Shown here: positions 43 to 23,197 of the stretch, piece after piece
Numbering within the stretch: position 1 is the stretch's first letter
How the letters are laid out: every line of letters starts with the position of its first letter
Assembly (NCBI RefSeq): GCF_014648875.1
Contig: NZ_BMRY01000002.1
Location: 558,001-622,000, forward strand
Length of the DNA: 64,000 bases
Direction: 5' to 3'
Source of the DNA: Streptomyces parvus
Lineage (GTDB): Bacteria > Actinomycetota > Actinomycetes > Streptomycetales > Streptomycetaceae
Notes under the pieces: generated by a model
What the model saw: only the letters and a program-made list of their open reading frames with translations
The model's database searches: none
What the model was told of the DNA's origin: nothing
Position numbers and translations under genes: made by a program

Positions 43-2326
<2,284 letters not shown>

Positions 2327-2334
2327 GAGTGTCC

Positions 2335-2432
2335 AGCCCCTCCCTTCGCCGGCATGACCCGGATCAGGTTCGTACGGTCGGAGGCCGTCCAGTCTCCCTC
2401 TCAGCCCGGTGCGTCCGGGCTCCCGCGAGTGT
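2335..2432 (-). promoter_or_regulatory. TPP riboswitch (THI box) upstream of thiO
   Basis: Read on the minus strand, the region contains the conserved TPP-aptamer blocks in order: GGGAGCCCGG, a GGGCTGAGAGGGAGAC block (the CUGAGA motif), then GAACCTGATCCGGGTCATGC and GGCGAAGGGA. These match the THI-box consensus for pyrimidine and pyrophosphate recognition. The 3' end of the aptamer runs into the thiO ribosome site (GGGAGGGG, ending 10 nt before the ATG), and no separate terminator is visible. Control is therefore probably at translation initiation: TPP binding hides the ribosome site of thiO and, through coupling, lowers thiS and thiG. Confidence 0.95.
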
Positions 2433-2444
2433 TCTACCGTGGCC

Positions 2445-21802: not shown

Positions 21803-22094
21803 GGCTACGACGTTAGCCTTCCCACCTGGCCCGGGAGGGCTGTGAGAGCGGACAAAGAACGTCAACACGGCTTGTTGTGAGCTAACCCACAGGCCCCTGT
21901 GGACGCACCCGTTCGGGTGAGTTCACCGCATCCGGTCGGGTGGCGCGACGCGCTGCGCGGTTCGTTGATCGCGAATCGATCGAATGGCAGGGTGGACTAA
22001 AGTAACGCGAAGTCAACACCCGAATTCCCGCCCCACTGCCCCATCGCACCTCCCCGCACCTCCTGCATATTCCGTATTTCCCCCGTGATGTGCG
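21803..22094. other. Divergent intergenic region before the dcw cluster
   Basis: No gene is seen here. The region holds ccacagg-cc-cctgtgg, a 7-bp inverted repeat near 21889, and TAAAGT near 21998, a possible -10 for rsmH without a clear -35. The last part leads into the mraW structured RNA. No mraZ gene is present, although mraZ precedes rsmH in many bacteria. Confidence 0.5.
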
Positions 22095-22200
22095 GCGTAC
22101 GTGCGACCCGGCCCTCTCCCGCTCTCGGTCGGCCGACGCCCCTTCCCCGGCGCCGGCGGGCCTCCCCTTCAGAGCGGGCGGGGACCAGGACGTACGTGCC
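22095..22200 (+). ncRNA. mraW RNA motif (5' leader of the dcw cluster)
   Basis: The leader of rsmH (mraW) can fold as a long stem: an outer GTACGT (22097-22102) pairs with ACGTAC (22190-22195), CCCGCTCT (22118-22125) with AGAGCGGG (22171-22178), and GCCGACGCC (22132-22140) with GGCGCCGGC (22149-22157) around the loop CCTTCCCC. The terminal CUUCCCC loop, its position upstream of mraW and the actinobacterial host match the published mraW RNA motif. Its ligand or function is unknown. The structure ends 32 nt before the rsmH start. Confidence 0.85.
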
Positions 22201-22231
22201 GGCCGCGCGGGACAGAGCCTGAGAGGGCGCA

Positions 22232-23197
22232 TTGAGCCAGACCCGACACGTCCCGGTGATGCTCCAGAGGTGTCTGGACCTGCTGGCCCCGGCTCTCCAG
22301 GACCCGGCCCACCCGGAGCCCGTGGTCGTCGACTGCACCCTCGGCCTCGGCGGCCACAGCGAGGCCCTGCTCGCCGCCTTCCCCACCGCCCGGCTGATCG
22401 CCCTCGACCGCGACAAGGAAGCCCTCCGCCTCTCCGGCGAACGGCTCGCCCCCTACGGCGACCGGGCCACCCTCGTCCACGCGGTCTACGACGAGCTCCC
22501 CGACGTCCTCGCCCGGCTCGGGATCCCGAAGGTCCAGGGCGTCCTGTTCGACCTCGGCGTCTCCTCCATGCAGCTGGACGAGGCCGACCGCGGCTTCGCC
22601 TACGCCCAGGACGCCCCCCTCGACATGCGCATGGACCAGTCCACCGGGATGGGCGCCGCCGAGGTGCTCAACACCTACCCGCCCGGCGAGCTCGTGCGGA
22701 TCCTGCGCGCGTACGGCGAGGAGAAGCAGGCCAAGCGGATCGTCTCCGCGATCGTGCGCGAGCGCGAGAAGGAGCCGTTCAGCAACAGCGCCCGGCTCGT
22801 CGAGCTGATCCGCGACGCGCTGCCCCAGGCCGCCAAGCGCACCGGCGGCAACCCCGCCAAGCGGACCTTCCAGGCCCTGCGCATCGAGGTCAACGGCGAG
22901 CTGAGTGTCCTGGAGAGGGCCATTCCGGCCGCCGTCGACAGCCTCGCCGTCGGCGGCCGGATCGCGGTGCTCTCGTACCACTCGCTGGAGGACCGGCTGG
23001 TCAAGCAGGTCTTCGCGGCCGGCGCCGCCAACACCGCGCCCCCCGGTCTGCCCGTCGTCCCCGAGCGCTACCAGCCCCGGCTGAAGCAGCTCACCCGGGG
23101 CGCCGAGCTGCCCACCGAGGAGGAGGTCGCCGAGAACCGGCGCGCCGCCCCCGCCCGGCTGCGCGGCGCCCAGCGCATCCGCGAGGAGGAGCGATGA
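22232..23197 (+). CDS. rsmH: 16S rRNA (cytosine1402-N4)-methyltransferase RsmH
   Basis: RsmH (MraW) methylates N4 of C1402 in 16S rRNA using SAM. The 321-aa product starts at TTG, giving [11 protein letters not shown]. It has the SAM-binding [15 protein letters not shown] near 31-45, [33 protein letters not shown] and the C-terminal [18 protein letters not shown] late segment ([27 protein letters not shown]) is also conserved in the family. It is the first gene of the dcw cluster. Its stop codon overlaps the ATG of a 14-codon ORF that leads to ftsL. Confidence 0.97.

Follow-up and report, generated by a model that had tools for sequence, protein, structure and literature searches.

The rsmH (mraW) leader in the window, the whole 64,000-nucleotide stretch analysed, contains a diverged mraW RNA, as shown at the sequence level by homology and covariation. 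The conserved RNA hairpin ahead of rsmH is real and is ordinary as to kind: the mraW RNA motif (Rfam RF01746) was described in 2010 by Weinberg et al., according to the available portion of that paper (PMC2864571), and we do not claim its form in this genus (Streptomyces) as new. Tentatively, we propose that the mraW RNA is an element of the mraZ–rsmH junction that may be bound by a factor or cut, and that would have become a leader here after mraZ was lost. To our mind it is more likely to work as an mRNA element that is bound by a protein or processed than as a riboswitch for a metabolite.

A diverged mraW RNA in the rsmH leader

Positions 22095–22200 of the forward strand, on which all features of the leader lie, fold into one long hairpin of nested helices with a predicted energy of −63.9 kcal/mol, which none of 200 dinucleotide shuffles matched (z = −3.65); over the longer span 22090–22231 the excess was weaker, with 7 of 200 shuffles equally stable (z = −2.26). 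In this fold a basal helix, helix 1 of the covariation test, joins a 5′ strand at 22097–22109 to a partner at approximately 22187–22199, and covariation likewise places the 3′ strand at 22187–22199. Next come the conserved arms, defined by genus alignments and covariation, GGCCCTCTCCCGCTCT on the 5′ side (22110–22125; genus consensus GGCCTCCTCCCGCTC) and AGAGCGGGCGGGGACC on the 3′ side (22171–22186). The sequence CTTCCCC (22142–22148) lies in the terminal loop; both the nested stems and the CUUCCCC loop of the preliminary description are present. An unpaired CCCCTTC segment on the 3′ side (22164–22170), seen in the fold and the genus alignment, is a feature of the genus, and CCCCTT occurs within the 3′ half of 63 of the 73 genus hairpin matches.

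The hairpin ends 32 nt upstream of the TTG at 22232 that starts rsmH (22232–23197), the first dcw gene here, which agrees with the spacing and order first described. The open reading frame is identified as RsmH by TIGR00006 (303.9 bits against a cut-off of 154.3) and is followed by genes for FtsL, then an FtsI/PBP-type transpeptidase, then MurE. A ribosome-binding-site-like GAGAGGG (22221–22227) has a similar block as its counterpart in most genus loci. Pairing of the loop or 5′ arm with the rsmH ribosome-binding site was considered and rejected: the window offers an 8-bp complement, GCCCUCUC/GAGAGGGC, but most genus loci combine GGCCUCCUCC with the same site, so that the complement is not conserved. 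By eye, G-run sites occur only in some of the wider loci.

The assignment to mraW RNA, which the preliminary description had made from the letters, was borne out by covariance searches in both directions and by covariation within the genus. In a permissive all-family search of 451 bases (21850–22300), RF01746 matched 22093–22207 over its full length (model positions 1–107 of 107, hairpin closed) at 34.1 bits (E = 2e-5), with a composition bias of 17.6 bits. This score lies below the Rfam gathering cut-off for the family (50 bits), which is a threshold for listing and not a structural feature. With that cut-off, mraW RNA was unlisted in the gathering search of the whole window, whose sole listing was a TPP riboswitch elsewhere (2324–2436, minus strand; 64.7 bits, above the Rfam cut-off), and an RF01746 search of the window's own genome returned zero matches. 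Among 20 genus loci (16 with and 4 without a hairpin), 10 matched RF01746 at E ≤ 0.1 and only two exceeded 50 bits (L018, 50.7; L099, 50.6). Because the cut-off governs listing and so few genus loci pass it, we file the window element as a diverged mraW homologue.

Homology also holds in the reciprocal direction: a covariance model built from genus hairpins, termed R1, recovers the family outside the genus. On the window's own genome R1 scored the element (model span 22089–22209) at 107.1 bits (E = 3.2e-18), the window copy being among its training rows. The next places scored E = 0.109, 1.04 and 8.03, the first of these being the antisense of the same hairpin; with a single convincing copy in the genome, a multi-copy or mobile hairpin is ruled out. 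Among 40 loci outside the genus, chosen across families of the class, R1 placed a hit upstream of rsmH in 37, weak matches (E up to 0.05) being counted, and two of the three missed loci matched RF01746, giving 39 of 40 overall. R1 likewise recovered 26 of 30 RF01746-derived loci (L031–L060), missing L045, L048, L052 and L055. Under strict filters, and across the phylum, RF01746 matched 39 of 396 genomes, with 34 above the cut-off; it also matched 199 of 201 genomes of one family, presumed to be Mycobacteriaceae, and 110 of 111 genomes of one genus, presumed to be Corynebacterium.

Covariation, loop relaxation and loss within the genus

Covariation was examined in DNA upstream of rsmH from 90 of the 117 genus genomes having an RsmH match. 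The genus set comprised 28 divergent hairpins aligned with MAFFT, the alignment not being fitted to the structure. In it 96.6% of cells were paired, against 36–47% in slid versions. Double changes affected 8 of 33 pairs, with 25 double-changed cells against 7.6 (sd 2.7) in shuffles, so that covariance support among Streptomyces homologues, on which the preliminary description had staked the motif, is present. The middle helix was paired in 99.5% of cells, and 10 of its 15 pairs were invariant across the 28 rows. A second set held 38 hairpins from other genera, aligned with MAFFT around the loop and therefore selected for it, with the structure drawn from the same alignment; here 13 of the 19 pairs had double changes, cells altered on both sides numbered 110 where shuffles gave 35.7 (sd 6.8), and slid versions were 28–52% paired. 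Further pair types in this second set were not exceptional (64 of 500 shuffles).

The strand under selection is indicated by mismatch type. G–U cells outnumbered A–C cells 275:24 in the genus, with the alignment fitted to the model, 73:4 in the second set, and 120:44 in a class-wide set that was likewise fitted and has some apparently misaligned columns. G–U being far above A–C, selection acts on the sense-strand RNA.

Within the genus the loop has relaxed and the helix has not: the CUUCCCC heptamer is present in all 39 hairpins outside the genus (counted anywhere in the hairpin) and in the terminal loop of only 37 of 73 genus hairpins, whereas the middle helix keeps its near-complete pairing. 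Longer apical inserts occur at four genus loci (L072, L078, L080 and L020), where the arms are as much as 91 nt apart.

R1 matched 73 of the 90 genus loci, two of them partially (L087 and L105), and gave no match in the other 17, which suggests that the element is dispensable in part of the genus. On a quick tree of 88 loci and 450 columns, presence of the hairpin requires 8 changes; the number rises to 9 when the partial matches are included, as in the group table, and no more than 3 changes are imposed by branches with good support. Judged from these leaders, the hairpin has probably been lost about 8 times in the genus. Five hairpin-less leaders (L063, L070, L075, L095 and L110) each retain a single arm, the 5′ one in two leaders and the 3′ one in the other three, a pattern that separate deletions would produce. 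Among the 17, the leader of L120, and perhaps that of L119, has hairpin-like stretches and may have diverged rather than lost the element.

Gene order, promoter-like sequence and transcript ends

Outside the genus, a MraZ match lies directly upstream of the hairpin and in the same direction in 39 of the 40 loci (tblastn); in the sole exception, L134, just 144 nt precede the hairpin. With model ends and match starts serving as approximate gene borders, the hairpin begins −8 to +88 nt relative to the mraZ stop in all but one of 38 loci, the exception lying at 207 (median 16.5), and ends 21–329 nt before the start of the rsmH match (median 114; 39 outside loci). It therefore sits nearer to the mraZ stop than to the rsmH match. 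A MraZ match was obtained in 261 of the 262 outside genomes. Within the genus it was found in 0 of 33 genomes, apart from two weak matches, and a second check gave only weak matches in long frames, in 3 of 31. Since mraZ is present in all but one of the outside genomes, its loss counts as a single event in any comparison of mraZ with the RNA across the class. The preliminary description had placed the hairpin ahead of the whole dcw cluster. This stands for the genus, where the hairpin fronts the cluster because mraZ is gone, and fails for the class, where it sits between mraZ and rsmH. Gene order suggests that the element began between these two genes and was stranded at the cluster front when mraZ was lost.

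At nine loci of several genera (L121, L122, L127, L136, L140, L141, L142, L143 and L160) the end of an apparent ORF for a small hydrophobic protein, judged by eye, lies between the hairpin and rsmH; with this intervening text, the RNA is not immediately 5′ of rsmH in those genera. At the mycobacterium-type locus L031 a reading frame some 420 codons long stays open through the mraW RNA and into RsmH. Long annotated RsmH N-termini in mycobacteria may represent the mraW hairpin read as protein.

Turning to the likely 5′ end in the genus, the window carries a conserved promoter-like sequence, TCGATC-N16-TAAAGT (21976–22003; TTGACC-N16-TAAAGT in most of the genus), which stops some 85 nt short of the element. 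The −10-like hexamer TAAAGT (in a few cases TAGAGT or TAGGGT) lies upstream of the hairpin site in 88 of 90 genus loci. Of these 88 loci, 71 have TTGACC at the N16 spacing, 13 the TCGATC form of the window and 4 a GGATC-type sequence. A promoter scan with an E. coli-type consensus found none in the window's leader. From the conserved promoter-like sequence we infer that transcription starts near 22010, which would give rsmH a leader of about 220 nt. Between the hexamer and the start of the rsmH match, the median distance is 223 nt in loci that have the hairpin and 126 nt in those that lack it. The region around the hexamer (21976–22011; GTGGACTAAAGTGACGCGAA) is conserved in the genus beyond what a plain promoter shows and may hold a regulator site. 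No terminator-like site, whether as intrinsic terminator or attenuator, was found in the window's leader. A leader peptide was rejected, the apical length modulo 3 being mixed and start and stop positions unshared among 63 distinct loci.

Transcription from downstream of the hairpin, which the preliminary description had set against its own reading, is in part a concern, in corynebacteria. In the available part of the published data, the C. glutamicum 5′ end at 2,266,932 falls inside the 106-nt motif (2,267,021–2,266,916), at its position 90; in C. diphtheriae, transcription of mraW starts downstream of the motif. Position 90 corresponds to the 3′ strand of the basal helix in four corynebacterial-type loci with motifs of 105–107 nt. 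At the −10 distance from this position, TANNNT was absent from those four loci and from 11 of 11 further loci. The C. glutamicum end is a possible processing site, the helix placement being read from loci of relatives. It may also be a true start, since the library, as far as its published description is available, was exonuclease-treated and designed to retain only primary ends. Our search of the main texts of papers outside subscription journals brought up neither a study of what mraW RNA does nor a transcript start mapped for it in Streptomyces.

Proposed role and relation to known systems

In the role that we favour, mraW RNA would act as a cis element of the dcw mRNA, located in the class at the mraZ–rsmH junction seen in the gene order and, in the genus after mraZ loss, within the predicted rsmH leader. 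A trans-acting factor would recognise the C-rich loop and the mismatched helix; the conserved loop and the sequence-conserved arms favour such a bound factor. Cutting or binding of the hairpin would then allow the mraZ and rsmH–dcw parts of the message to be stabilised or translated separately. Our first guesses at candidates are RNase III and a protein with a KH domain, for instance KhpA/KhpB. In the genus the hairpin would be only a 5′ element of the rsmH mRNA, with a less constrained loop and a hairpin that can be lost. Its function would not be essential there, given the 17 loci without a match, and a purely mraZ-linked role is disfavoured by the intact middle helix in a genus without mraZ.

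A more specific version, which we consider rather doubtful, makes the mraW RNA a class-wide intercistronic switch point between mraZ and rsmH, at which a loop-bound trans factor would direct cleavage in the basal helix, and not a riboswitch. If true, cleavage would set the level of MraZ relative to the other genes of the division cluster, and the genus, having lost mraZ and kept the RNA as a leader, would now be losing the RNA and so providing natural deletion mutants.

Somewhat unlikely, in our judgement, is a plain processing or stability hairpin that works without a dedicated regulator, either as a cutting site for RNase III or another nuclease or as a shield for the 5′ end. It would accommodate the long imperfect duplex and the published C. 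glutamicum 5′ end within the stem, the latter as far as the available source goes; but an invariant heptamer in all 39 outside hairpins and sequence-conserved arms exceed the needs of a generic duplex substrate. RNase III is said, in the title of Maeda 2016, to cleave mraZ coding mRNA, a point in favour of this hairpin being a processing site.

A riboswitch sensing a peptidoglycan precursor or SAM appears improbable. A conserved leader structure ahead of rsmH and peptidoglycan genes invites this explanation, and the available part of Weinberg et al. (PMC2864571) leaves room for it: Table 1 rates mraW as a probable RNA that is probably cis-regulatory, marks its riboswitch status "?" and gives its range as Actinomycetales. 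A single unbranched hairpin in which no junction or pseudoknot was seen, the hairpin's absence from part of the genus, the lack of a conserved leader ORF, and a window leader in which no terminator-like site was found speak against a riboswitch or attenuator; the variable distance to rsmH, together with the lack of such a site in the window's leader, also means that no fixed expression platform is seen. We hold it quite improbable that a small RNA, transcribed or cut off, pairs through the C-rich loop with G-rich ribosome-binding sites elsewhere: although the available text of the UpsM study (PMC5089854) supplies a precedent in Rhodobacter, where a dcw leader gives rise to an sRNA, here no terminator-like site follows the hairpin and the terminal loop of 36 of 73 genus matches is without the heptamer.

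A decaying relic with no present function in the genus would fit the loss of mraZ, the heptamer kept in just half of the genus hairpins and the repeated losses of the hairpin, and is nevertheless very improbable in view of the pairing and invariance of the middle helix. Most improbable is a DNA element, either an inverted-repeat operator or an internal promoter, for although the corynebacterial mraW transcript starts, as far as their publication is available, lie at or after the motif, the excess of G–U over A–C cells in both main sets is unexpected for duplex DNA and the promoter-like sequence here ends well upstream of the element.

Among known systems, the ftsA 5′ untranslated region of Streptococcus pneumoniae, which the available text of PMC6403258 suggests is bound by EloR/KhpA, offers an earlier example of KH proteins linked to division mRNAs. 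It shares with the mraW RNA a suggested control of division genes at the RNA level and differs in having no known structured motif, so that a link between the two is a guess. UpsM of Rhodobacter sphaeroides, an sRNA from the 5′ leader of dcw, is likewise a structured RNA tied to the dcw transcript, according to the available part of PMC5089854; unlike the hairpin described here, it is Hfq-bound, comes from upstream of mraZ and has a terminator at its end, and the two are likened by description, not by sequence.

The closest relative is the mraW RNA of RF01746 itself, called a putative regulator of peptidoglycan synthesis in the available part of PMC9569102. With it the window element shares a position upstream of rsmH, a full-length match, a long hairpin with symmetric mismatches and the CUUCCCC terminal loop. 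It differs in its score below 50 bits, an extra unpaired CCCCUUC on the 3′ side, the lack of mraZ upstream and a promoter-like sequence directly ahead. Beyond this genus, mraW RNA is present also in mycobacteria (PMC9569102, as far as its text is available) and corynebacteria. The tie to the mraZ junction and the natural losses place the mraW RNA better than before; together with the near-invariant loop, they make an orphan motif before essential cell-wall genes testable.
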